Shown: positions 5,499 to 41,136, counted from the first letter of the stretch. The stretch is 64,000 bases of DNA from an uncultured Candidatus Actinomarina sp. (GCA_902593795.1 CACJJR010000001.1:1-64000), one strand, 5' to 3'. A program made the numbers and translations. The notes: generated by a model from the letters alone, not told the origin.

Positions 5499-7304
5499 AT
5501 GAAAGTTGATTATAAAAATCGTATTCAAAATATTTTTATAATCTTTTTTTTAATTTCATATTTAATTATTCAATTCTTTGGATTAAATTATTTAAATGAT
5601 CAATCAAAGAATGAATTCTGTGAATCAGTAATTTCGGTAGAAAGTCTAACAACTAAAAATTCAAATGAAATTTATTTTGATTTTTTTAATGACAAAATTA
5701 CATACAGGACATTAGATATTTTTCCTGAAATCGAAAATATAAAATGTTTATCTTTTGAAAGTAACTCAAATAGTGAACGTGTAATCCTTACATCAAATAA
5801 TTTTTATAATTTAATATTAATACTTACTTTTCTTGGAAGTATTTTTTTATTTTCATTACTGAAATACAGAAATATATTTATTTTTACAACTTTCATCTAT
5901 CTGTGTTATTTAAATATAACTAAATTATTTTTTAAAGAATTTTTTTTAAATTATTATTTTTTATTAGCTGTATTTACTGTTTTTTTGTATTACTTAATTA
6001 TCAATAAAGATTCTGACAATGACTTAATGGATTATATTAGAATTTTTTATTTTTCTTTTTACTCTATTATTTTATTTTTCGATTATGAACTTTTTCAAAA
6101 GTTAATTATTTATCTAATTGCATTTTATTTAATTTTTTTAAGCTCAAAAAAATTAAATAGTAAGGAATTAATATTATTAAAACTTTTACCAATGATTTAT
6201 TATGGATTAAGAATTTTATCTGGTATTTTTTTAAATCTAAATGTCACCTGGCAGAGATTGTCGGCAAATACATATCAATCCAATGAAAGATACGCTGATG
6301 GATTTTATGGATTAAATGTATTAAATTGTAATGCTACAGGATGTGACGAACGAAATAATTATGGACCAATATGGGAATATTTATCTCTTGAGATGAACGT
6401 TGAAATTGTTTCAATAATCTTAGCTACTATTGTGATAATTCTGATGCTTCTAATTTACATAAAACTATTTAATATTTTACAAGTAGATAAATTTATTTTA
6501 CAGTTTCTATTTATCAGCCCTCCTATTGTGTTTGGCCTTGAAAGAGGACAATTTGATTTCCATTTTGTTTTAATCTCTCTGTATGCGCTTCTAATTTTTA
6601 AAAAAAATAAATTAATAGCTTATTTGCTAATTTGCTTTGCAATTCAAGTAAAGCTTTATCCAATTTTTTTATTTGCAGGAATAGTTTTTTATTTCTACAA
6701 AATGAAAGAAACTAAAAACCTGATTGAGTCATTAGTGCTTCTTTTAATAAATTCATCAGTCTTATTATTTTATTATTTTAGAGTGAACTTCAGTGAAAGG
6801 ATTCAAGATCAATCAGGAATATCACAAACTTATGGAATTCAAAGCCACGCGCAAAACTACAATGATTTCTTAAATGTCGATTTACTTATTGGGTATTTAG
6901 GCCAATTAATTATTATTTTATTACTTATTGGGTATTTTCTAAAAGTAAGACAAAACGAAAGCTTGAAAGAGCACAACTTTGTTTATCTAAGTTTTAGCAG
7001 TATGTTTATATTGAGTAGTCTTATAGGAAATATTGACTTCAGGCTAATAATATTTTGCATACCCCTTGTTTTTCTATTAGAGAATGGAATTAACTTTGTT
7101 TCAATCTCAGGATTATATTTAATTGCATCTTCTCCTTCGATGTATTTCAATGGTTTTCAAAATGTAAATCAAAATATTCTATTTACAATTATTGAAACTA
7201 TACCTGTTTTTATAAGCCATCTTTCTTTTTTAATAATGTTTAGCTACTTTATTTATGAATTTATTTTTTACTTTTTCAAGAATGATATGCTTGCAAATAA
7301 ATAG
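5499..7304 (+). CDS. GT-C membrane glycosyltransferase, GT87/DUF2029-like
   Basis: A 601-residue multi-spanning protein expected to transfer a sugar from a polyprenyl-phosphate donor on the outer face of the membrane. After the first helix comes an extracytoplasmic loop with two cysteines (near 40 and 83), then many helices. The segments FGLERGQFDFHFVLISL and IQVKLYPIFLF closely resemble the ERGN-D and K-YP signatures of GT87-type enzymes. Its N-terminal loop (ending PEIENIKCL) resembles that of the interrupted GT-C gene at 53379-55289. The 3' end overlaps the convergent GT2 gene by 37 bp. Donor and acceptor unknown. Confidence 0.7.
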   Translation: MKVDYKNRIQNIFIIFFLISYLIIQFFGLNYLNDQSKNEFCESVISVESLTTKNSNEIYFDFFNDKITYRTLDIFPEIENIKCLSFESNSNSERVILTSNNFYNLILILTFLGSIFLFSLLKYRNIFIFTTFIYLCYLNITKLFFKEFFLNYYFLLAVFTVFLYYLIINKDSDNDLMDYIRIFYFSFYSIILFFDYELFQKLIIYLIAFYLIFLSSKKLNSKELILLKLLPMIYYGLRILSGIFLNLNVTWQRLSANTYQSNERYADGFYGLNVLNCNATGCDERNNYGPIWEYLSLEMNVEIVSIILATIVIILMLLIYIKLFNILQVDKFILQFLFISPPIVFGLERGQFDFHFVLISLYALLIFKKNKLIAYLLICFAIQVKLYPIFLFAGIVFYFYKMKETKNLIESLVLLLINSSVLLFYYFRVNFSERIQDQSGISQTYGIQSHAQNYNDFLNVDLLIGYLGQLIIILLLIGYFLKVRQNESLKEHNFVYLSFSSMFILSSLIGNIDFRLIIFCIPLVFLLENGINFVSISGLYLIASSPSMYFNGFQNVNQNILFTIIETIPVFISHLSFLIMFSYFIYEFIFYFFKNDMLANK

Positions 7305-7978
7305 TTTAATGTAGAAAATGAAAGGATTAATTTTCCTTTAATAGAACCTCCTCCTTTTGCTAGATTGAAGGCTCTATTATAAAAAATTAAATTAAAAAGC
7401 TTTATTTTATAGTCTGCTTTTCTTGAGGATATCAAAAGTGCGAGATCTAGGTTGAAATCATCTGGCAATTTTTCTAAGTTTTTAACAAGTGATCTTGAAA
7501 ATATTTTTGGTTGGGCATTAATATCTTTAAAGTAAAATCCCGAAAATATAAATGTTATTATTGACATCATGCTTGTGAAAAACAAATCTAAAGTTTTTCT
7601 GTTTTCTCTTTTACCCATATATATATAATTATCTTTATCCTCACTTAGTAAAAATTTACTAATTAGACTTTGCACATCTGTTGCACTAATTTGAAGGTCT
7701 GCATGTGTCCAACATATATATTTATTATTAGTTTCTGAAATTCCATATTTAATTCCAAATCCATACCCTTTATTTTTAGGTACTTTAATTAAATTTAAAT
7801 TTTTTGAATTTGCTTTTGATATTTCATTTATTAAAACTTTTAGTGTATTGTCTGTAGATCCATTATCAATGAAGTGCACCATAATATTCTGATTTTCTAA
7901 AACAATTGTTTTCCATTGTTCGACCAGTGTCTTTACATTGCTGTCTTCGTTATAACACGGAATAAGTAAATCAATCAT
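7268..7978 (-). CDS. GT2 glycosyltransferase, GtrB/DPM1-like, last gene of the pentulose operon
   Basis: A 236-residue GT-A enzyme with LIPCYNED (residues 4-11), DNGSTDN (about 38-44), KGYGFGIKYG and HADLQIS, the last holding the Asp expected for metal/donor binding. It resembles polyprenyl-phosphate glycosyltransferases of the GtrB/DPM1 type but lacks C-terminal membrane helices; the GtrA-like domain encoded three genes upstream could complete such a system. It overlaps the nucleotidyltransferase gene by 8 bp and the convergent GT-C gene by 37 bp. It is clearly related to the GT2 at 16643, which also follows a nucleotidyltransferase. Inference: it uses the nucleotide sugar made by this operon. 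Confidence 0.8.
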   Translation of the reverse strand: MIDLLIPCYNEDSNVKTLVEQWKTIVLENQNIMVHFIDNGSTDNTLKVLINEISKANSKNLNLIKVPKNKGYGFGIKYGISETNNKYICWTHADLQISATDVQSLISKFLLSEDKDNYIYMGKRENRKTLDLFFTSMMSIITFIFSGFYFKDINAQPKIFSRSLVKNLEKLPDDFNLDLALLISSRKADYKIKLFNLIFYNRAFNLAKGGGSIKGKLILSFSTLNYLFASISFLKK

Positions 7979-8702
7979 CTCTCAAGCCTTCCGAATATGA
8001 AGCATACTCTTTTGGGGTACCAATAATATCAATTTCAGTCAAAAGGTTTTCTAAATTGTAGTTTTGATTGTGTAATATTTCAAACATAGTATCTATGTAA
8101 AGCTCATTATTTATAAACATCTTATTTTCTACCATTTGTTTATATATCTTATGAAATAAAGATTTATTTTTAAAATAAAAAGATCCAGCAATTAAGAATG
8201 AGTCATTAACTCTATCTGGTGTTTCCTTACAAAAGATATTCTTAACTTTTTTTTCACCAATTACCCATCCATAATTATTTGCATTTTCTTTATGTTCCTC
8301 TTTTGGATACGTTGTGAAGACTAAGCTATCAACTTTAGAATTCTTATTTAATATTATTTTGTTTTTAAATATTGCATCACATGAACCAACAAAAAAATCT
8401 TCCCCACTTGGAACCAAGTCTAAAGACTTTAAACAAGAAGTTGCTTGACCATTTGTAACCTCATCGAGTAATAATATGGTTTTATTTAAATTAAATTTCT
8501 CATAAAATTTTATAAATGTTTCATGCTCATAGACTTCTTTGTTGACTGTAAAAATCCACTTATCAGTATTTGGAAAATTATTAATAACTTTTTCAATTAT
8601 TGGTTTTCCATGTAGATCTATAAGAGGCTTTGGAATTTTATAGCCTTCATCTTTAAACCTCTGCCCTTTTCCAGACATAAGAACTATATTATTTTTTACC
8701 AT
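7971..8702 (-). CDS. Sugar-phosphate nucleotidyltransferase
   Basis: A 243-residue GT-A-type NTP transferase that should couple a sugar or polyol phosphate to CTP, GTP, UTP or dTTP. The N-terminal signature is LMSGKGQRF (residues 8-16) followed by KIPKPLID (22-29); the usual GG is replaced by SGKG. FFVGSCDAIF supplies the metal-binding Asp. It is shorter than hexose-1-phosphate enzymes such as RmlA and nearer to the compact enzymes used for unusual phosphates. It overlaps both neighbours (8 bp with the GT2, 7 bp with the 2H phosphoesterase), so it is locked into the operon that also encodes AraD- and RPE-like pentulose-5-phosphate epimerases. Substrate not determinable by reading. Confidence 0.8.
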   Translation of the reverse strand: MVKNNIVLMSGKGQRFKDEGYKIPKPLIDLHGKPIIEKVINNFPNTDKWIFTVNKEVYEHETFIKFYEKFNLNKTILLLDEVTNGQATSCLKSLDLVPSGEDFFVGSCDAIFKNKIILNKNSKVDSLVFTTYPKEEHKENANNYGWVIGEKKVKNIFCKETPDRVNDSFLIAGSFYFKNKSLFHKIYKQMVENKMFINNELYIDTMFEILHNQNYNLENLLTEIDIIGTPKEYASYSEGLRDD

Positions 8703-9292
8703 AATTTCTCTAAAACCTTCAAATCTTTACTTGTAATTTCCGCAATTACAAGGTCATGAAATTTTTCATTAATTTTATTACTTTTGCTTAAAAACTTATT
8801 TTTTTCTTTTATATCTAAATTATTTATGTTTGTAACGGTAAAGTGTGGAATTAAATTTTCACCAACAAATGGATAATTATATTTTTTAAAATCATTAATA
8901 AATTCGTTACTTAGATTTAAAAACTCACTCCCTTTAAATGGTTTAAATTTATTTAAAAGTTTAATCTGAAAAGTTTGAATTGGTTCTGGATTATCTATTA
9001 AATAAACCAATGTACTAAAATTTTTTTCCACATCATCTTCAAAAATGAACTGTCTATTTAGTTCATATGAATAATTTTTTAGCTCTTTTATTAAATTAAT
9101 ATTCTTCTTTATATTTTTTTCTAAGTTTTTGTAATCTCCATAAATTCCATGGAGAAGTGTCAAATGTGGAAAATCGTTTAAAAAATTTTGCTTATTTTCA
9201 AAAGATTTAAAATACTTCTTCATACTGTAAATTTCTTCAGCAGCTTTTTGGCCTGGAAGCAGAAATATTCCAATCTTTCTAAATTTCTGCAT
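8696..9292 (-). CDS. 2H-phosphoesterase superfamily protein (2'-5' RNA ligase-like)
   Basis: A 198-residue protein with the two short histidine motifs that define the 2H superfamily: HLTL at residues 43-46 and HFTV at 150-153, about 105 residues apart, one per half of the pseudo-symmetric fold. Members hydrolyse or form 2',3'-cyclic or related cyclic phosphodiesters. In this position, between a nucleotidyltransferase-phosphatase fusion and a sugar nucleotidyltransferase that it overlaps by 14 and 7 bp, an RNA role seems less likely than hydrolysis of a cyclic phosphate or phosphodiester in sugar activation. That role is inference; the fold call rests on the two motifs and their spacing. Confidence 0.7.
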   Translation of the reverse strand: MQKFRKIGIFLLPGQKAAEEIYSMKKYFKSFENKQNFLNDFPHLTLLHGIYGDYKNLEKNIKKNINLIKELKNYSYELNRQFIFEDDVEKNFSTLVYLIDNPEPIQTFQIKLLNKFKPFKGSEFLNLSNEFINDFKKYNYPFVGENLIPHFTVTNINNLDIKEKNKFLSKSNKINEKFHDLVIAEITSKDLKVLEKLW

Positions 9293-10703
9293 TAAAATTC
9301 TTCATTATTTTACTGAATGTTTTTCTATCTGTGTTTAACATATATTTACTATTTAACTCTATGAATTGAATTGGATAACCGTGGGGAACATTTATCAAAT
9401 GCCACTTAGTTATTGGGATTTCTAATGAAAATCCTACCATACATCTAACAACACCTTGGTGAGTAAAAAATACAGAATTTTTATTAATTGTTGAGAGTAA
9501 TTTTTCTATTCTCTCATATACCATGGTATTATTTTCACCCTCTGGAAACTTGAAATCATCATCTTTTTGAATTGAATCTGAAATATATTCGTATTGATTA
9601 ATCACTTCATCAAAAAAAAGTCCGTCGGCTTTTCCGTAATTAATTTCCTTTAGGTCCTCTGAGACATTAAAAGAGTTTATCTTAAGTTTATTTATTGTTT
9701 GAATGCATCTTGTAGATGGGGAAGAAAATATTTCAAAATTGGAAAAATCAAAATTTTTTAATTCTAAAGGTATATCTTGATTCTCAATAATATCTATTTC
9801 GTTTTCTGAGCCAAGAAACCTCCCATCATTTAAATTAGTTTTTAAATGTCTTATTAAAATAACCTTTTTAGATTTTTCTATATATTTATTTACAATTGAA
9901 TCAAAATCGTTTAAAAAATTGCCTACAAGTTCGACTATATCGAGTTTTTCTAATTCTTTATTTAACTTAAGATTATATAGTTTTGAAAAGATTTTATTAT
10001 ATTTGTCATAAAGCTCTTCATATTCATCCTTCCACACCTTCATAAAATCATCAAACTTAAATTTGATATTTTTATTTAAGTTGACTTTAAGAAGATTACT
10101 TATAGAGTTGTAAATTATATGATATGCAAATTCAATTGCATGTCTTTCATCTAGTTCATAGTAAGTCTTGACTTGTGCTAACTCACCATTTTGAGATTCA
10201 TATCTTCTGTAGGAGATTCTGTTTTTCGAAATATCTTCTATATATTCCTTTGTCCCCCTTCTAGAGCTGATAAAATCATTTAGCATTAATTTATGTACTG
10301 AGGAAATCTCACTTAATGAATATCCGGTAAAGTTCTCGGACCTTTCCCAATCAAAGCAGGTAAAAGGAGAATTTTCAACATGTTCTAAATGTAAATGATG
10401 ATCATAAATCATTAGATGCAATACTAAATTATTTTTATTATCAAATTTTAAAGGACCAAATGTATCATTTATAAATATTTGTTTCTCAATATCAAGCTCA
10501 TTTAAATCAATATTTGACAATGAGTTCTTTATTAAATCAATAATTCCAATATCAATTTTTTTTACAACAACTATTATGTCAATATCTGAAATTCTTTCTA
10601 AATCCATACTGTTGATAGAACCAACAATGGTTGAACTAACAATATCAGAATTTTTTTTTAAAACATTAAATATTGTTTTTATCAATAATTCTTCTTTTTT
10701 CAT
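9279..10703 (-). CDS. Fusion: Pol-beta-type nucleotidyltransferase domain plus histidine phosphatase domain
   Basis: A 474-residue two-domain protein. Residues 1-~270: a minimal nucleotidyltransferase, with GS at 28-29, then ten residues and DID at 40-42 (the GSx10DxD signature of the Pol-beta fold), followed by a helical segment. Residues ~279-474: a phosphoglycerate-mutase-like histidine phosphatase with LIRHLKT (catalytic RH 285-286), SSPSTRCIQT, EINYGKADG, FPEGEN and FTHQGVVR (second catalytic His 415). All phosphatase landmarks are present, so that half should be active. The gene overlaps the GtrA-RPE gene by 4 bp and the 2H gene by 14 bp. Likely job (inference): trimming or swapping phosphate on the pentulose intermediate of this operon. 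Confidence 0.8.
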   Translation of the reverse strand: MKKEELLIKTIFNVLKKNSDIVSSTIVGSINSMDLERISDIDIIVVVKKIDIGIIDLIKNSLSNIDLNELDIEKQIFINDTFGPLKFDNKNNLVLHLMIYDHHLHLEHVENSPFTCFDWERSENFTGYSLSEISSVHKLMLNDFISSRRGTKEYIEDISKNRISYRRYESQNGELAQVKTYYELDERHAIEFAYHIIYNSISNLLKVNLNKNIKFKFDDFMKVWKDEYEELYDKYNKIFSKLYNLKLNKELEKLDIVELVGNFLNDFDSIVNKYIEKSKKVILIRHLKTNLNDGRFLGSENEIDIIENQDIPLELKNFDFSNFEIFSSPSTRCIQTINKLKINSFNVSEDLKEINYGKADGLFFDEVINQYEYISDSIQKDDDFKFPEGENNTMVYERIEKLLSTINKNSVFFTHQGVVRCMVGFSLEIPITKWHLINVPHGYPIQFIELNSKYMLNTDRKTFSKIMKNFNAEI

Positions 10704-11755
10704 TGTTCAGAGTCTTGATATTTTTGTGAAGTCTGAAAATTTATAATCTGCTTCTTTGAGTCTTCATCATTCAGTATTGATGAGGCAGATACTACTTCCT
10801 GAACATTAAATTTTGAAGCAATTTTTGGTGTTATACCTCCGTCAAGTGTGATCTTGACATCATTTACTTGCTCAGAAATTTTTATTAATTTATTTATTAA
10901 ATCAGAATATTTATTTTGAAAAACTTGGCCAGAAAATCCAGCTTTACCAACACACAAAACCATAAAATTACTAAATAAATTCATTAATTTAGAAATTTGG
11001 GATTCTGACATTTGATTGTGCAAGACTACTCCAGGAATAAAATTCTTACTTAAAATAAGAGACGAAATTTTTTCAATATTAACATTTTCGTCATAGTGAA
11101 AAAATACTTCAGTATTTCTTGATTTTGGAAGTTGACTAATCCAAAAGTTTGGATTTTTTGACATTAAATGAATTTGTAATTTTTTCTGTGGCCATAATTC
11201 TCTTATTTTATTTAACATTTCAATATCAATTGAGATATTTTCAGAGTTGTAGGTCTCATCAATTAAATCTATATGTATAAAATCTGGAAAATTTTTTACT
11301 TTGTTAAATATTTCTAAAACGTTATTTGATTTATTTAGATGAATCGCTACACCTATTTTTTGATAATTTTTGAATGTATACCTTCTGTGTAAAAAATAAG
11401 CAATTAAAAAAAGAGCTCCAGAAATTTGAAACCGATTTTGAAAAAATTCTATATCAACAACATAACTAAATGTAAATTGAACAATACAGGAAAAAATAGA
11501 AATTACAGTGAAATAAAATAGGGAAATTTTTATTCTCTCTTTTGGTACCTTGAAATTAAAATTTACATTAAGAATATATGCAACAGCAATGCTTGCTGAA
11601 ATAGAAAATATATTTGAGAGCAAAAAATTAGTGTCAAAATATTTAATTAGATTAATTCGAATTATATTTTCAACCATTAAGCTTATAAAACCAATAATTG
11701 TGTAAAAAATTAAGAACCTTAGCTTATAAAATAATAAAATAACCCTATTGTCCAT
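10700..11755 (-). CDS. Fusion: GtrA-like membrane domain plus ribulose-phosphate 3-epimerase-like domain
   Basis: A 351-residue fusion. Residues 1-~128 are a complete GtrA-like domain: four hydrophobic helices (about 12-30, 44-65, 77-98, 108-124) closing with HRRYTF, the family's typical end. Residues ~133-345 are a TIM-barrel of the ribulose-5-phosphate 3-epimerase type: HIDLID (161-166), IHLMS (195-199), VGKAGFSGQVF (269-279, aligning with the phosphate-binding loop) and LDGGI (304-308). RPE interconverts D-ribulose-5-P and D-xylulose-5-P; GtrA proteins are thought to flip polyprenyl-linked sugars. The fusion would place the epimerase on the cytoplasmic face next to a lipid-sugar flippase. 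It overlaps the AraD-like gene by 11 bp and the next gene by 4 bp. Confidence 0.8.
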   Translation of the reverse strand: MDNRVILLFYKLRFLIFYTIIGFISLMVENIIRINLIKYFDTNFLLSNIFSISASIAVAYILNVNFNFKVPKERIKISLFYFTVISIFSCIVQFTFSYVVDIEFFQNRFQISGALFLIAYFLHRRYTFKNYQKIGVAIHLNKSNNVLEIFNKVKNFPDFIHIDLIDETYNSENISIDIEMLNKIRELWPQKKLQIHLMSKNPNFWISQLPKSRNTEVFFHYDENVNIEKISSLILSKNFIPGVVLHNQMSESQISKLMNLFSNFMVLCVGKAGFSGQVFQNKYSDLINKLIKISEQVNDVKITLDGGITPKIASKFNVQEVVSASSILNDEDSKKQIINFQTSQKYQDSEQ

Positions 11756-12446
11756 AATATTTATTTGGACCGTGTTTTCTATTAAAGTGTTTGCTTGATA
11801 TGAAATCTTCGATAGTTTCAGATGAAGGGTTCAGGTTTCTTGTAATAAAACACAACTCTGCCAGATATTCTATAATTTCAGCATTTTTTAATGCATCCTC
11901 TATTGTTTTTCCCCAAGAGAATACTCCGTGCCTTATAGACAAGATACCAGGAGTTTCTAACATTGAAATCCCTTTGCTTTTAATTGTCTCTATTATTTTT
12001 TTTCCAGTATTTAATTCATAATCATTAACCACTTCGTCCTTATCAAGCTGTTCGGTTACAAATATGCTATATTTAGAAAAATCAGAGTGTGTTGTTCCTA
12101 AATTTGGCACTTCTAAATTAGCTTGAGCAAAAGCAGTAGCATATTTTGAATGTGTGTGAACTACACCATTAATGTCTTTATCTGTATACAAAATCCTATG
12201 AGTTGGCTCATCTGAAGATGGATTCAAATCTCCATCTAATTTATTCCCTTCAAGATCCATTTGAACCATCTCTTTATGATTAGATTCTCTTAAGATAATC
12301 CCACTCGGCTTAATAACAAAGCCATTTAAAAATCTTGAACTTGCATTGCCAAAATTCTGTATGACTAAATGGGAATTTTGTAACTCTGAATTTACTTTAT
12401 AAACATTCCTCTTTGCATTATTTAATGAATCAGACATATATATCAT
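11745..12446 (-). CDS. L-ribulose-5-phosphate 4-epimerase-like class II aldolase family protein
   Basis: A 233-residue class II aldolase/AraD-family enzyme. The zinc site is visible: His97 and His99 in VVHTHS and His173 in IRHG; SSDEPTH (77-83) matches the AraD SSDxPTH segment, and the C-terminus HGPNKYYGQ is the AraD hallmark ending. Full length for AraD. The classical reaction is L-ribulose-5-P to D-xylulose-5-P. There are no arabinose-catabolic genes around it; instead it overlaps (11 bp) the GtrA-RPE fusion, so it probably supplies a pentulose phosphate for polysaccharide synthesis. Start uncertain: ATG 12446 or the fourth codon ATG 12437. Confidence 0.85.
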   Translation of the reverse strand: MIYMSDSLNNAKRNVYKVNSELQNSHLVIQNFGNASSRFLNGFVIKPSGIILRESNHKEMVQMDLEGNKLDGDLNPSSDEPTHRILYTDKDINGVVHTHSKYATAFAQANLEVPNLGTTHSDFSKYSIFVTEQLDKDEVVNDYELNTGKKIIETIKSKGISMLETPGILSIRHGVFSWGKTIEDALKNAEIIEYLAELCFITRNLNPSSETIEDFISSKHFNRKHGPNKYYGQ

Positions 12447-12509
12447 TTTAGATAAAGACTATAAAAAGTGCTTCTAAATAAAAGTTTTATGCAATTAAAT
12501 TAATTAATG

Positions 12510-13460
12510 TTAAATGTCTAGATTTAAAAAATATGTTTTTGCACTATTGAAAAAAGCTTCTTCATTATTAAGCTCATATTCAAAATTATCTGGAACCCAT
12601 AATGGGTCAAAATAAAAATCCAAAGGAAAAGATCCAAAATGCCATTTAGTAAACTTAACTAATTTTAATGAAACTAAAATATTTCCTAAAAATTCAAAAA
12701 ATTTAGAGTTAAAGCTTATATAACGAACTTTTTTTTCAATTTTTGTTCCTAGTGAATCAAGATGTTCTTTTAACGATTTTGGATTTGGTGCTCCAGCCGG
12801 CCAATTACCAGAGATTTTATTCATTCCAATATGTAATATCAATCTTGATAGGTCATTAACGTCAACAAATTGTATTATTTGTCTTCCTTTGTTTGGTAGT
12901 GGTATTGGAATGTTGTATTTAATAAGTTTGAAAAATATTTCAAAGATTCCTTTTCTACTCATTCCCATAATTGTCCTTGGTCTAATCACTGCATAATTGC
13001 TATCGTTTAAATACTTTGTTAAATTTATTTCTGTTTCAAGTTTTGTCTCTGCATAAGTATCAAGTGGATTAAATTTTGTCGATTGTTGGACTGGTATTTC
13101 AAAAGGCTTTCCATATATTCCACTAGAACTTACATAAACAAAAAAAACTGAATCTAAATTAGATATTTGTTTTATCAGATTTAATGATGAAACAATATTT
13201 GTTTCATATAAATCTTTTTTTTTGCCTTTAAATGGTAAAACAGTAGCTGTGTGAATTATTAAATCGAACTTATTTAAACTCTCTTTATTCTGTTCAAGAT
13301 AGTTGTTTATGGACATTACTTTATATTCAAAATTTTCATATTTTTTTTTAGGTGCACTTATGTCAAGTGCTGTAATTCTATGATTTGTTTTAGATAAAAT
13401 TTCACTTAGTCTTATTCCTAAAAAGCCTGAAGAACCAGTTAGTAATATTTTTAAATCCAT
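12510..13460 (-). CDS. NAD(P)-dependent epimerase/dehydratase (extended SDR)
   Basis: A 316-residue extended SDR: Rossmann loop LLTGSSGFLG (residues 6-15), YVSSSGIYG for the catalytic Ser, and YAETK for the Tyr-x3-Lys pair. The C-terminal substrate domain has IQFVDVNDLSRLI, as in nucleotide-sugar epimerases and reductases. It is the first gene of the minus-strand operon, 63 bp before the AraD-like gene, so it may act on the same activated sugar, for example reducing or epimerising a keto group. A TAGTAT box (13467-13472) lies 6 nt before the ATG. The exact reaction cannot be assigned. Confidence 0.8.
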   Translation of the reverse strand: MDLKILLTGSSGFLGIRLSEILSKTNHRITALDISAPKKKYENFEYKVMSINNYLEQNKESLNKFDLIIHTATVLPFKGKKKDLYETNIVSSLNLIKQISNLDSVFFVYVSSSGIYGKPFEIPVQQSTKFNPLDTYAETKLETEINLTKYLNDSNYAVIRPRTIMGMSRKGIFEIFFKLIKYNIPIPLPNKGRQIIQFVDVNDLSRLILHIGMNKISGNWPAGAPNPKSLKEHLDSLGTKIEKKVRYISFNSKFFEFLGNILVSLKLVKFTKWHFGSFPLDFYFDPLWVPDNFEYELNNEEAFFNSAKTYFLNLDI

Positions 13461-13547: not shown

Positions 13548-14264
13548 ATGAATGAGAACACGGAACCTAGCTTAAATATTTACCTCATTGGAGGAAATTC
13601 AGTTATAGGTAAATCTATTCTTAGAGGTGTCCTGAAAAAATATGAAAACTTTTCTTTAAAAATAACCTCGTTCGTAAGAAGTGAATTTCAAGAAAAGACA
13701 ATAGGAGAAAAAATTACTGTTAATAATTACCTTGAATGTTTAGACCACATAAATAGTAAGAGTTCCTGCAAAGAAGTTCCAAACATATATATCATTAGCT
13801 TTGGGGTATTGGTTGAAGAAAAAAACTCTGAAAATTTTCTAAACAATTTAAAATATCATTTGGATATTAATACATTCCAATCATTCGAAATATTTAAATT
13901 TTTATTAAAACTTGATAAAACAAAGGAAATTCATATTGTATCAAGTGTATTGGGAGACTTTATCAGACCTAGTCTTTATTCATACTCTTTTTCTAAAAAC
14001 TTACTTGAATTATTGATTAGTAATATTGACTTAAAGAAAAATTTAAAAAATAAATATTTTGTTTGGAAGCCAGCATTTGTAAATTCAAAGTTAAATAAAA
14101 ATAGATCTGCAAGTTTTATCAAAACTAACCCTGAAAAAATTACAAATCTAGTTTTAAATACCAATAAAAGCGGGAGTTACTATATTCCTAAATATGCGGT
14201 TTTCTTTACTTTAATAGCTAAATATACAACACCATTAATTAAATTTATAGATAAGAAAAACTAA
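13548..14264 (+). CDS. Short-chain dehydrogenase/reductase, DprE2-like
   Basis: A 238-residue classical-size SDR. The nucleotide loop is YLIGGNSVIG (residues 12-21); the catalytic Ser is in HIVSSVLG (132-133) and Tyr146/Lys150 form YSFSK. The GGNSxIG start and VSSVLGD segment recall DprE2-type reductases, which reduce a keto sugar on polyprenyl phosphate after an FAD oxidase. It converges with, and overlaps by 4 bp, a GMC flavoprotein oxidoreductase gene, so an oxidase/reductase pair that epimerises one sugar carbon is a reasonable hypothesis. The DprE2 comparison is by pattern only. A C-terminal hydrophobic stretch may touch the membrane. Confidence 0.7.
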   Translation: MNENTEPSLNIYLIGGNSVIGKSILRGVLKKYENFSLKITSFVRSEFQEKTIGEKITVNNYLECLDHINSKSSCKEVPNIYIISFGVLVEEKNSENFLNNLKYHLDINTFQSFEIFKFLLKLDKTKEIHIVSSVLGDFIRPSLYSYSFSKNLLELLISNIDLKKNLKNKYFVWKPAFVNSKLNKNRSASFIKTNPEKITNLVLNTNKSGSYYIPKYAVFFTLIAKYTTPLIKFIDKKN

Positions 14265-15865
14265 AAATTCTTTTTTAACCATTTATTCATAAGTATCTCA
14301 TTCAAAACCATAACTACTGCTTGTGGATTCCCCCATGGTGCATATGGCAAAAGTGACGCATCACAGATTTTAATTCTATTATCGTTTTTTAGCTCTCCTA
14401 ATTCGCCAATATCTTTACTTATATTTAATGGCATGGATCCAAAAACATGGACTGTTGTCATGGGAGATACTTTAGATTTAGGCCAAATATCATTAATATT
14501 TGTTGACTTAAGTAAATCTAAAAGGATATTAAATCCTTTTTCAATTTTTTTTCTATCTTTCTTTGATGTATAACAAAATGGAATTAATTTACCAAATATA
14601 TTCAAAAGCCTTCCATTAGAATTCTCTAAAACTGTACTACTAAAGTAACTTACTAATTTACCATCTATTGGCAAGTTGTTAGTTTTACCAAGAGATGCAA
14701 GCGTAGCTTTCACATATGGATAAGTTGAGACAGAATATCCAAATTTATAGATATAATCTGTTGTCCATGCTTGGTATGGTGGAAACAAATCCCCATCGTT
14801 CACAACGTCTTCATATTCCACTACTGCTCTGTTCATAGGATGAAAGTTAAAATATAATTTATCTTTGATTAATCCTGAGTTTTTTAAAATTTGTGGAGTT
14901 CCAATAGTGCCTGCAGAAAGTACTATGTTTTTGGCTTTGATTGAATTTTTTTTATTTTTAGAAGTAATGATGATTTCAATATAATCTATTTTAGGTAAAA
15001 TTTTTACTACCTTTGATTCAGTAAAAATATCAACACCTTTTTCCTCTGATTCTTTTAAATAAGTTACTTGCATACTCTTATGTTCTTCAGCTGGTTTATA
15101 GGATCTCCACCTAGGCACTTCCTCACAAACTAAGCCTTTATTTTCTGACCCTTCAAGCAATGCAGATTTTATATTATCTAAAGAACCTTGAGGTGATTTT
15201 TGGACAGATATTTTTTGCTCAACTATTTTTTCATAGTACTGCCATTCTTCTTCTTCTAGATTACATTTTTCTAAAAAAGAACTTCTGTAAGGTTCCGTCA
15301 ATTTAAAATATAATCCACTGTTGACTTCACTTCCACCTCCATACGTTTCTCCTTCTGTAAATAACATTGGTATATTTCCATAACAAAAATTTAGACCCTT
15401 CTTTTTGAATTGTTTCGTTGTTTGATCTAGTGAGTGGTGTTCTATTGCTCCAGGCAAGTATTTTGCACCAGACTCAATAAGAACGACACTTTTACCCTTT
15501 TCTAAAGACCTTAATGAAGCTATAGATCCTCCAGGTCCACTTCCAACAACTGCAATATCATAAATTTTATCTAAATCTGTATTCATTTCATTTTCTATTT
15601 TTTTAACAGTAGATTCATTTTCTGATTCAAAAACTAAAATTACAATACCCGTGAGGAATCTAAATAATATAAAGTTTTTATTTAAATTAATAAAGAAACT
15701 CGAAGAAGAAAACAAATTTAAAATTTTAAGATAAAAATACAAAATAAAACTCAATAAACCTGTACTGTTAATTCTTGAATATACACTTTTACATTTTTCT
15801 TCGTTATATTCATAATTTAAAAAATTTAATAATATATTAAGAGATTTATATTTGCTGTTTTTCAT
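14261..15865 (-). CDS. GMC-family FAD oxidoreductase
   Basis: A 534-residue flavoprotein. Residues 1-100 are an unusual N-terminal extension with two hydrophobic segments (about 36-56 and 64-80) that could anchor it to the membrane. The FAD Rossmann motif VVGSGPGGS is at 106-114, followed by the ribose-binding acidic end VVLIESGA; YGGGSEVNSG is the GMC signature region; the C-terminal part has MTTVHVFGSMPL and CDASLLPYAPWGNPQA, where His and Asn form the usual GMC active pair. It probably oxidises a sugar or polyol hydroxyl. Tail-to-tail with the SDR at 13548. TATAAT (15872-15877) is 6 nt before the ATG. Substrate unknown. Confidence 0.85.
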   Translation of the reverse strand: MKNSKYKSLNILLNFLNYEYNEEKCKSVYSRINSTGLLSFILYFYLKILNLFSSSSFFINLNKNFILFRFLTGIVILVFESENESTVKKIENEMNTDLDKIYDIAVVGSGPGGSIASLRSLEKGKSVVLIESGAKYLPGAIEHHSLDQTTKQFKKKGLNFCYGNIPMLFTEGETYGGGSEVNSGLYFKLTEPYRSSFLEKCNLEEEEWQYYEKIVEQKISVQKSPQGSLDNIKSALLEGSENKGLVCEEVPRWRSYKPAEEHKSMQVTYLKESEEKGVDIFTESKVVKILPKIDYIEIIITSKNKKNSIKAKNIVLSAGTIGTPQILKNSGLIKDKLYFNFHPMNRAVVEYEDVVNDGDLFPPYQAWTTDYIYKFGYSVSTYPYVKATLASLGKTNNLPIDGKLVSYFSSTVLENSNGRLLNIFGKLIPFCYTSKKDRKKIEKGFNILLDLLKSTNINDIWPKSKVSPMTTVHVFGSMPLNISKDIGELGELKNDNRIKICDASLLPYAPWGNPQAVVMVLNEILMNKWLKKNF

Positions 15866-15974: not shown

Positions 15975-16646
15975 ATGGATGCAATATTGCCTGCAGCTGG
16001 ATTAGCTTCTCGAATGAGAGGTTTGCCTAAATTCTTGCTACCAACTGGCAAAGATTATATTTCATTACTCGAAGTTCATATATCTAATTTATCAGATATA
16101 TGTGAAAGAATTTATCTTCCAACCAGGCCTGAATTAGCTCCAATAATTAAATCTTTAGATTTTAATTTTAGTAACACAGAAATACCCGAAATGGTAACCT
16201 CTACTATGTGTGAAACGGTAAACAATACTTTATCAATTTCAGAAGCTAATAATTTTATTTTAATTATGCCTGATACATTTTTTCTTGGCGAACAACCTTA
16301 CGAAATTTTAGATAGTAATACTGAATTTTGTAATCTTGCATGCTGGAAAATAAGAGACGAACAAAGAGGTAAACTCGGTGAAGTAAGATTTGACGAAAAT
16401 AAAAACGTTTTAGAAATGGTTGATAAAAAGCCTGATAATGGATTCGAGCATGCTTGGGGCGCCTTAACTTTTAATAGAAAACTTGAACAATATATTAATA
16501 ATCAAGACCCTCACATAGGATATGCAGTTAAAGAATCTGTTAACAATGGCGAAAAAGTATCAGTAAGTCTCATAGAAGGAAACTACTTTGATTGTGGAAC
16601 TCCTGAAGAGTACATAAAGTTGCTAAAAGAAACTTTATTGTCTTGA
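15975..16646 (+). CDS. Sugar-phosphate nucleotidyltransferase
   Basis: A 223-residue NTP transferase with ILPAAGLASRM (residues 4-14), LPKFLLP (Lys19) and LIMPDTFF for the metal Asp; GNYFDCGTPEEY near the end is typical of sugar nucleotidyltransferases. It should make an NDP-sugar for the GT2 gene that follows with a 4-nt TTGA overlap. A GGGAG Shine-Dalgarno-like site lies 5 nt before the ATG, so this gene has a conventional leader. Together with 7971-8702 it is the second compact nucleotidyltransferase in the window that is paired with a GT2. Substrate not recognised. Confidence 0.8.
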   Translation: MDAILPAAGLASRMRGLPKFLLPTGKDYISLLEVHISNLSDICERIYLPTRPELAPIIKSLDFNFSNTEIPEMVTSTMCETVNNTLSISEANNFILIMPDTFFLGEQPYEILDSNTEFCNLACWKIRDEQRGKLGEVRFDENKNVLEMVDKKPDNGFEHAWGALTFNRKLEQYINNQDPHIGYAVKESVNNGEKVSVSLIEGNYFDCGTPEEYIKLLKETLLS

Positions 16647-17350
16647 AAGATAATAATTTTCAGATTGTAGTTCCTTTTTACAATGATGAAGATAGTTTTG
16701 AAACCTTTGTAGAGATATTAAACAAAATGGAAACTGAAGATAATGCGTTTATCTTGCTTGATAATGGATCAGATACAAATGAAATAAAAAAAATTGCAGA
16801 AAATAAACGTAAAAATAATTGGACTTTTGTTCGTTCTGAAAAAAATCTTGGCTTTGGTGGAGGAATTAAATATGCTGCTGAATTTGTCGAGAAAGAATTT
16901 GTTGCGTGGATGCCGGGAAATTTAAAATTAAATCCATCAGATGTTTATGAAGTCATAGCTAAGCAAAAATTGGATGAAAAGTATTTATATATCAAATGCG
17001 CGCGTAAAAATCGTCCAAAAATTGATCACCTAAAAACTAGAATATTTGGAATTATTGCAAGTATATATTTTGGAAAAAAAATATTCGATGCCGGAGGCAC
17101 TCCCAATTTAATTCATAAAGATTTCTTTTCTATTGAAAAAGACTTTCCAAAAGATTTTTCATTTGATGTATTTGTTTACTATTACTGCCTGTTAAATAGC
17201 TTTAAAATTAAAAGGCCATCCATTAGCTATAAAACAAGAGTTCATGGAGAATCTCACTGGCAAAAAGGTTTGATTAGCGAAATTAAATTAACTTTTAATA
17301 TATTAAAGTACAAGAAACAATGGAAAGATATCTCAAAAATAAAAATTTAG
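16643..17350 (+). CDS. GT2-family glycosyltransferase with atypical metal motif
   Basis: A 235-residue GT-A protein: VVPFYNDED, LDNGSD, a GFGGGIKYA segment like the one in the GT2 at 7268, and HGESHW near the end. Where relatives have an Asp-containing ADLQ or DAD motif, this protein reads WMPGNLKL, so the metal-binding acid seems to be lost or moved. It starts with TTG at 16643 inside TTGA, overlapping the nucleotidyltransferase stop, so translation is coupled. Inference: it uses the product of that enzyme, or binds it without a metal. It ends 3 bp from the convergent FkbM gene. Confidence 0.75.
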   Translation: MKDNNFQIVVPFYNDEDSFETFVEILNKMETEDNAFILLDNGSDTNEIKKIAENKRKNNWTFVRSEKNLGFGGGIKYAAEFVEKEFVAWMPGNLKLNPSDVYEVIAKQKLDEKYLYIKCARKNRPKIDHLKTRIFGIIASIYFGKKIFDAGGTPNLIHKDFFSIEKDFPKDFSFDVFVYYYCLLNSFKIKRPSISYKTRVHGESHWQKGLISEIKLTFNILKYKKQWKDISKIKI

Positions 17351-40542: not shown

Positions 40543-41136
40543 TTATCCTAGAGAATTTTCCCAAATTTTTATTTCATCATAATCAACCATTGTATAATCA
40601 GGAAAATACTCTATGTCCTTCAACTCTTTTATAACTTTATCAATTTCATTAATCCTGCCCCATCTTGATGGTGAGACCAAACATGATTTAAATTTTTTTA
40701 TAATTTCTAAATTTTGTTTTTCAATAGGAAGTTTGTTGAATGTATCAATCCACATCCAGTCAACTTTGTTTACCAAGTTTGAGGATGTCTTGATGTCTTC
40801 AAACTCTGAAAATCTCGTAGAAAGATACTGTCCTTTATCTTCATAGTTTTTAATTAAATAAGGAAATTCAATATCTAATAAGAAAAAGTTATCAATTTTA
40901 TTCCTTTTTAATGTTTCTATTACAATATCTTCTATTCCAGAATCCTTTATATTTGCCACAAGAATTTTATGACTATAATTCTGTAAAAATTTTTCAAACT
41001 CTGTGCTGCAATCAGAAGGTTCGTGACATAATACCAACTTATTATTCCTAATTCTTAGATCAAGCTCTATTCCGTAATTAGTTGGTATTTTGCTTAACTT
41101 TTCTTCTGTATTGACCTTATGAACTATATATTCCAC
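40543..41136 (-). CDS. Small glycerophosphodiester phosphodiesterase-like protein
   Basis: A 197-residue protein whose first 60 residues read like the start of a GDPD TIM barrel: EYIVHKVN, then NYGIELDLR (Glu and Asp metal pair) and LVLCHEPSD (second His). Later strands (ILVANIKDSG, FFLLDIEFPYL, DWMWIDTF, CLVSPSRW) also fit a short barrel, though the usual first HRG is HKV. It could hydrolyse a phosphodiester in a glycan or glycerol-phosphate decoration. The family is suggested, not certain; it is shorter than most GDPDs. Divergent from the GT-C gene at 41153 with only 16 bp between. Confidence 0.5.
   Translation of the reverse strand: MEYIVHKVNTEEKLSKIPTNYGIELDLRIRNNKLVLCHEPSDCSTEFEKFLQNYSHKILVANIKDSGIEDIVIETLKRNKIDNFFLLDIEFPYLIKNYEDKGQYLSTRFSEFEDIKTSSNLVNKVDWMWIDTFNKLPIEKQNLEIIKKFKSCLVSPSRWGRINEIDKVIKELKDIEYFPDYTMVDYDEIKIWENSLG

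Follow-up and report, generated by a model that had tools for sequence, protein, structure and literature searches.

The window analysed here is a stretch of 64,000 nucleotides of an uncultured Candidatus Actinomarina sp., whose genome assembly comprises 1.07 Mb (~89% complete). Seven minus-strand open reading frames, all intact and with ATG start codons, follow each other in this window. The first in transcriptional order encodes a short-chain dehydrogenase/reductase (SDR) of the NAD-dependent epimerase/dehydratase family (12510..13460; PF01370, 2e-22). It is followed by an AraD-type L-ribulose-5-phosphate 4-epimerase (11745..12446; PF00596, 2e-34; NCBIfam PRK08193, AraD subfamily, 2.9e-73) and by a fusion protein (10700..11755) of a GtrA membrane domain (~11372-11704; PF04138, 3.7e-9) and a ribulose-phosphate 3-epimerase (RPE)-like domain (~10778-11299; PF00834, Ribul_P_3_epim, 2.8e-23). 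The next frame (9279..10703) is another fusion, combining a Pol-beta-type nucleotidyltransferase (~9879-10703; assigned through PF01909 of its relatives) with a histidine phosphatase (~9384-9863; His_Phos_1, 9e-18). The remaining three encode a cyclic phosphodiesterase-like 2H phosphoesterase (8696..9292; motifs, PF13563 of relatives and AF2 fold), a nucleotidyltransferase of the NTP_transferase fold (7971..8702; PF00483, 1.4e-9) and a small GT2 glycosyltransferase, similar to DPM synthase in size and motif (7268..7978; PF00535, 1e-16). A gap of 63 bp separates the SDR and AraD genes, and the five following junctions are overlaps of 11, 4, 14, 7 and 8 bp. The positions of the seven frames and the 4-14 bp overlaps among the last six had been given in a preliminary description of this DNA, and both are confirmed. 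Its family assignments agree with Pfam and NCBIfam, the two weak ones (nucleotidyltransferase half and 2H protein) by way of relatives.

The conserved unit consists of the six genes from AraD to GT2 plus an unannotated family of ~197 aa. In other operons this family follows GT2; the copy in the window is found 28 kb away (40543..41136, minus strand) and is 36-45% identical to eight operon-borne homologues. Its HRxN...ExD...H pattern is phosphodiesterase-like by motif alone, and the family has no match in Pfam, the PDB or to UgpQ. It was considered as a glycerophosphodiester phosphodiesterase (GDPD), an identity for which the motif is the sole indication.

With the nucleotidyltransferase-phosphatase fusion as query, 14 further loci are recovered from three phyla, namely from SAR11, other Alphaproteobacteria, Marinimicrobia and Verrucomicrobia. 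Ten of them (L018-L027; Pelagibacteraceae/SAR11, other Alphaproteobacteria, Marinimicrobia, Verrucomicrobia) derive from a scan with one genome per species, and later searches added three loci of the SAR11 family and one of Verrucomicrobia. L027 is nearly identical to L026 and is therefore not an independent locus. The hosts are unrelated, mainly marine bacteria, their operon proteins share ~30-45% identity between loci, and mostly a single gene order is kept. The co-occurrence of the gene families, which the preliminary description had proposed as a check, thus extends well beyond the window, and such recurrence shows that the operon is not a chance assembly.

The order AraD, GtrA-RPE, nucleotidyltransferase-phosphatase, 2H, nucleotidyltransferase, GT2 and ~197-aa family is unbroken in eight loci (L019, L022, L023, L025, L026, L044, L045 and L046). 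L020 (Marinimicrobia) has the last two genes shifted ahead of AraD. The three Verrucomicrobial operons L018, L021 and L053 lack AraD, with insertions in L018 and L021, and L024 and L027 are truncated where their contigs end. The Verrucomicrobial operon of L018 contains an inserted gene for a 23S rRNA intervening-sequence-type protein (L018:11266-12036). In L020, a second cyclic phosphodiesterase gene (CPDase, PF07823; L020:5157-5687) overlaps the GT2 gene at its start.

Occurrence within each lineage is sparse. Counting the query genomes, the fusion is present in six of 297 sampled genomes of the SAR11 family, three of 288 of the Verrucomicrobial class and one of 199 of the Marinimicrobial phylum. 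No full-length fusion occurs in 41 other genomes of the order to which the window genome belongs, no full-length counterpart of its nucleotidyltransferase half in 394 other genomes of the class, and no second full-length match among 346 genomes of the phylum. This patchy spread, combined with the ~30-45% identity, suggests old lateral transfer of the operon. Nothing that would indicate a viral origin came from three scans of viral_contigs (2H protein, nucleotidyltransferase fusion, GtrA-RPE) or from querying phages with the fusion, and neither the nucleotidyltransferase fusion nor the GtrA-RPE fusion was found in plasmids.

The SDR gene has no consistent operon-linked orthologue at the other loci. 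It was considered as a seventh core gene and rejected on this lack of conservation; it is therefore probably a neighbour outside the core unit, and its earlier listing as an operon member is not borne out. This bears on a pathway in which the pentulose-5-phosphate would be reduced to a pentitol-5-phosphate by the adjacent SDR and converted to a CDP-pentitol, as in CDP-ribitol synthesis. Such a pathway appears very improbable: the SDR is suitably placed 63 bp upstream, and the CDP-ribitol and CDP-6-glucitol pathways do begin at ketose phosphates, but no dedicated reductase is conserved at the other loci, GT2 and GtrA are ill-suited to polyol-phosphate transfer, and the operon enzyme has the PF00483 fold and not the PF01128 type used in those pathways. 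The preliminary description had outlined a route from the pentose-phosphate pool to a lipid-linked pentulose or pentitol. The pentitol variant, which needs a reductase, is not supported because the SDR is not conserved. The outlined pathway is thus supported in part: entry at a pentulose phosphate has strong support, and the loci bear out a conserved route of several genes, with an intact AraD, an RPE-type epimerase, two nucleotidyltransferases, a phosphatase, GT2 and GtrA.

Beside the operon, a further SDR gene with weak similarity to DprE2 (2e-4) and a GMC oxidoreductase gene are convergent with a 4-bp overlap (13548-15865). Neither has a homologue at the 13 other loci tested. The pair would suit a quite improbable alternative, in which AraD and RPE merely feed an aldopentose product such as lipid-linked arabinose, with the keto-sugar as an intermediate; a GtrA protein is also used by polyprenyl-phosphoarabinose systems. 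The absence of both neighbours from those 13 loci speaks against it, as does the composition of the conserved set, which contains no aldose-ketose isomerase, no UbiA-type (PRPP) transferase and no DprE1-type oxidase. Genes of the decaprenyl-phosphoarabinose (DprE) pathway are absent from the conserved set, and the weakly DprE2-like SDR is located outside the unit only.

AraD is predicted to be an intact L-ribulose-5-phosphate 4-epimerase. The best PDB match of its profile is E. coli AraD (1jdi, 1e-75), and H97, H99, H173, D122 and Y230/Y231, which align to the zinc histidines, the catalytic Asp and the C-terminal Tyr of 1jdi, are invariant in eight sequences. The protein corresponds to E. coli AraD in sequence, length and catalytic residues, but is encoded among polysaccharide genes instead of arabinose catabolism genes, and would be expected to run from D-xylulose-5-phosphate to L-ribulose-5-phosphate. 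Among the 297 sampled genomes of the SAR11 family, the six with the fusion, and no others, have an AraD at E<1e-100; two further genomes have a weaker AraD relative. In each of the 11 loci outside Verrucomicrobia, AraD lies ahead of GtrA-RPE. Both Verrucomicrobial hosts of AraD-less operons from the first scan possess AraD elsewhere, beside an FGGY-family kinase, which suggests that arabinose catabolism can supply L-ribulose-5-phosphate in these two. In the assembly of G911, which carries the operon, no full AraD was found, nor does any lie immediately ahead of GtrA-RPE; this exception speaks against the pathway favoured below.

The GtrA-RPE fusion is present in every locus found. Its RPE domain belongs to the same TIM-barrel family as ribulose-phosphate 3-epimerase (rpe) and shares the metal ligands and the catalytic Asp pair (H161, D163, H196, D305; all invariant) as well as the phosphate loop. 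Loss of catalytic residues in AraD or the RPE-like part, named in the preliminary description as evidence that would speak against the pathway, is thus observed in neither enzyme. The substrate loops, in contrast, are replaced: the canonical PSIL strand and the MDGxFVPN loop are absent in 14 of 14 operon RPEs when compared with 11 canonical-type RPEs of the host genomes. In a tree of these 14 operon domains and 11 host enzymes the operon RPEs form a clade of their own (support 1.00), with a mean identity of ~23% to the canonical host enzymes and 43% among themselves. The window domain scores below the NCBIfam rpe cutoff (86 vs 213). A separate RPE-family gene is present in 13 of the 14 host genomes. 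The one of the window genome (G000:C2:212749-213327, L028) is divergent (115 bits to PF00834) and reads LHVDITDGHFADN at the usual place of the VMDGHFVPN signature, with a DGHF-type loop kept; it was left out of the tree.

Because nearly all hosts possess another RPE gene and the operon domains form a separate clade without canonical loops, the operon domain probably acts on a pentulose phosphate other than plain D-ribulose- or D-xylulose-5-phosphate. The AraD part of the earlier proposal, that AraD and RPE interconvert L-ribulose-, D-xylulose- and D-ribulose-5-phosphate, stands with an intact AraD; its plain D-ribulose/D-xylulose-5-phosphate epimerase probably does not. The most economical and best-fitting reading of the RPE step would be a C3 epimerisation of L-ribulose-5-phosphate to L-xylulose-5-phosphate after AraD, and from this we infer the L rather than the D series. 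For the D series, the RPE domain would supply D-xylulose-5-phosphate or D-ribulose-5-phosphate at the membrane, a D-pentulose would be activated, and AraD would represent a side branch. The three Verrucomicrobial operons without AraD, one of them in a host whose genome shows no full AraD, agree with such a scheme, as do the retained metal ligands and phosphate loop, and the known marine example is D-xylulose. We nevertheless regard the D series as unlikely, with another RPE-family gene already serving central metabolism in nearly all hosts, AraD placed ahead of GtrA-RPE in 11 of 11 non-Verrucomicrobial loci, and the canonical loops lost.

The nucleotidyltransferase-phosphatase fusion comprises 474 aa. 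PF01909 is detected in seven of ten members (weakly in the window protein) and PF00300 in all ten. Invariant residues are G28, S29, D40, D42 and D101 in the nucleotidyltransferase half (G-S, D-x-D and a third D) and R285, H286, R332, E353 and H415 in the phosphatase half. In the AF2 model of the fusion (pLDDT 90) the phosphatase half resembles CobC/PGAM folds, and the Foldseek matches listed for the fusion concern this half only. The 198-aa 2H protein of the window has no Pfam match; PF13563 is found in seven of eight relatives, and the motifs H43-x-T/S and H150-x-T are conserved in eight of eight sequences. Its AF2 model (pLDDT 78) is nearest to YjcG, the Arabidopsis Appr>p cyclic phosphodiesterase 1jh6 and E. 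coli LigT, and the protein accordingly belongs to the 2H phosphoesterase superfamily. In the second nucleotidyltransferase the GxGxRF, KP, C-D and N-E-x-Y-x-D motifs are conserved; the nearest PDB structure is 4evw, in which no substrate is named. Enzymes of the NTP_transferase fold mostly use sugar-1-phosphates, which speaks against a route to a pentulose donor.

A further point against such a route is that no kinase or mutase in the gene set accounts for the change from a 5-phosphate to anomeric activation, and we speculate that the Pol-beta nucleotidyltransferase and the cyclic phosphodiesterase may stand in for one. In a specific form of this idea, the pentulose-5-phosphate would receive a nucleotide at its anomeric hydroxyl from the nucleotidyltransferase half, the 2H protein would resolve an intermediate, either cyclic or a diester, and leave the anomeric phosphate, removal of the 5-phosphate would fall to the phosphatase half, and the second nucleotidyltransferase would make an NDP-pentulose for a lipid-linked L-xylulose donor. 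Such a kinase- and mutase-free activation of a ketose at its anomeric carbon would be new, and we consider it doubtful in this particular form.

The GT2 protein is 34-43% identical to eight relatives, with a conserved W-x-H-x-D-x-Q motif; it is a small protein in which no membrane domain is evident. GT2 and a GtrA membrane protein occur together, as in GtrAB-type lipid-linked sugar systems. Four loci (L018, L021, L025 and L045) contain an extra stand-alone GtrA gene ahead of GT2, and in L021 a PMT_2 GT-C gene overlaps the start of GtrA-RPE. In the window, a plus-strand gene for a GT87-like membrane glycosyltransferase (5499-7304) is convergent with the operon GT2 gene, with an overlap of 37 bp. 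Together, GT2, GtrA and the nearby GT-C-like genes suggest a lipid-linked (polyprenyl-phosphate sugar) donor. The operon shares these components with GtrAB(C)-type O-antigen modification and the ArnC-style supply of polyprenyl-phosphate sugars, but additionally encodes epimerases of its own for pentulose phosphates along with two nucleotidyltransferases, a phosphatase and a cyclic phosphodiesterase, and has GtrA fused to an epimerase. A second nucleotidyltransferase and GT2 gene pair with a 4-bp overlap is located at 15975-17350 on the plus strand, in a layout resembling 7268-8702.

Xylulose occurs only rarely in glycans. The capsule of the deep-sea bacterium Devosia submarina contains D-xylulose, and xylulose is also known from E. 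coli O95, Y. enterocolitica O:10 and C. jejuni RM1221 (PMC8707391). The side chain of Y. enterocolitica O:10 is L-xylulose, and the genes listed for its published 11-gene cluster serve D-rhamnose, transport and methylation or encode glycosyltransferases, with no entry for a xylulose donor (PMC11380512). A surface glycan with L-xylulofuranose is possibly a product class common to this system and the operon. CDP-6-fructose provides a precedent for a ketose phosphate as substrate of a nucleotidyltransferase (PMC10918830). Both the operon and the CDP-6-D-fructose/CDP-6-D-glucitol pathway of Campylobacter jejuni contain a nucleotidyltransferase, the latter activating a ketose phosphate for the capsule; the C. 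jejuni pathway differs in its PF01128-type enzyme, its reductase, the activation at the far carbon and the lack of a GT2/GtrA module (PMC10918830). The open-access literature yielded no donor or donor pathway for glycosidically linked pentuloses, and no relevant pathway for GtrA with RPE or for CDP-ribulose. The operon is thus real and conserved and apparently undescribed, the last provisionally, as the search covered open-access papers.

We favour, with modest confidence, a dedicated and horizontally mobile operon for a lipid-linked pentulose donor of a surface glycan. AraD would convert D-xylulose-5-phosphate to L-ribulose-5-phosphate, and the RPE-like domain would epimerise a pentulose-5-phosphate at C3, most simply L-ribulose-5-phosphate to L-xylulose-5-phosphate. 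The nucleotidyltransferase-phosphatase fusion, the 2H cyclic phosphodiesterase and the NTP_transferase-fold enzyme would then produce a nucleotide-activated pentulose with its 5-phosphate removed. GT2 would transfer the sugar onto polyprenyl phosphate, GtrA would help to flip the lipid-linked sugar, and a GT-C enzyme would attach it on the outside. Gene set, order, recurrence, catalytic residues and folds are read directly from the loci and models; every substrate, the sequence of the steps and the lipid carrier are inferred, as are the product and the chemistry.

A compact set of six to seven genes that recurs across phyla is a concrete candidate for a pentulose donor pathway, and includes a relative of RPE with a perhaps new substrate and an as yet unassigned nucleotidyltransferase-phosphatase fusion. 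If the assignment is correct, it would explain part of the surface-glycan variability in abundant, streamlined ocean bacteria.
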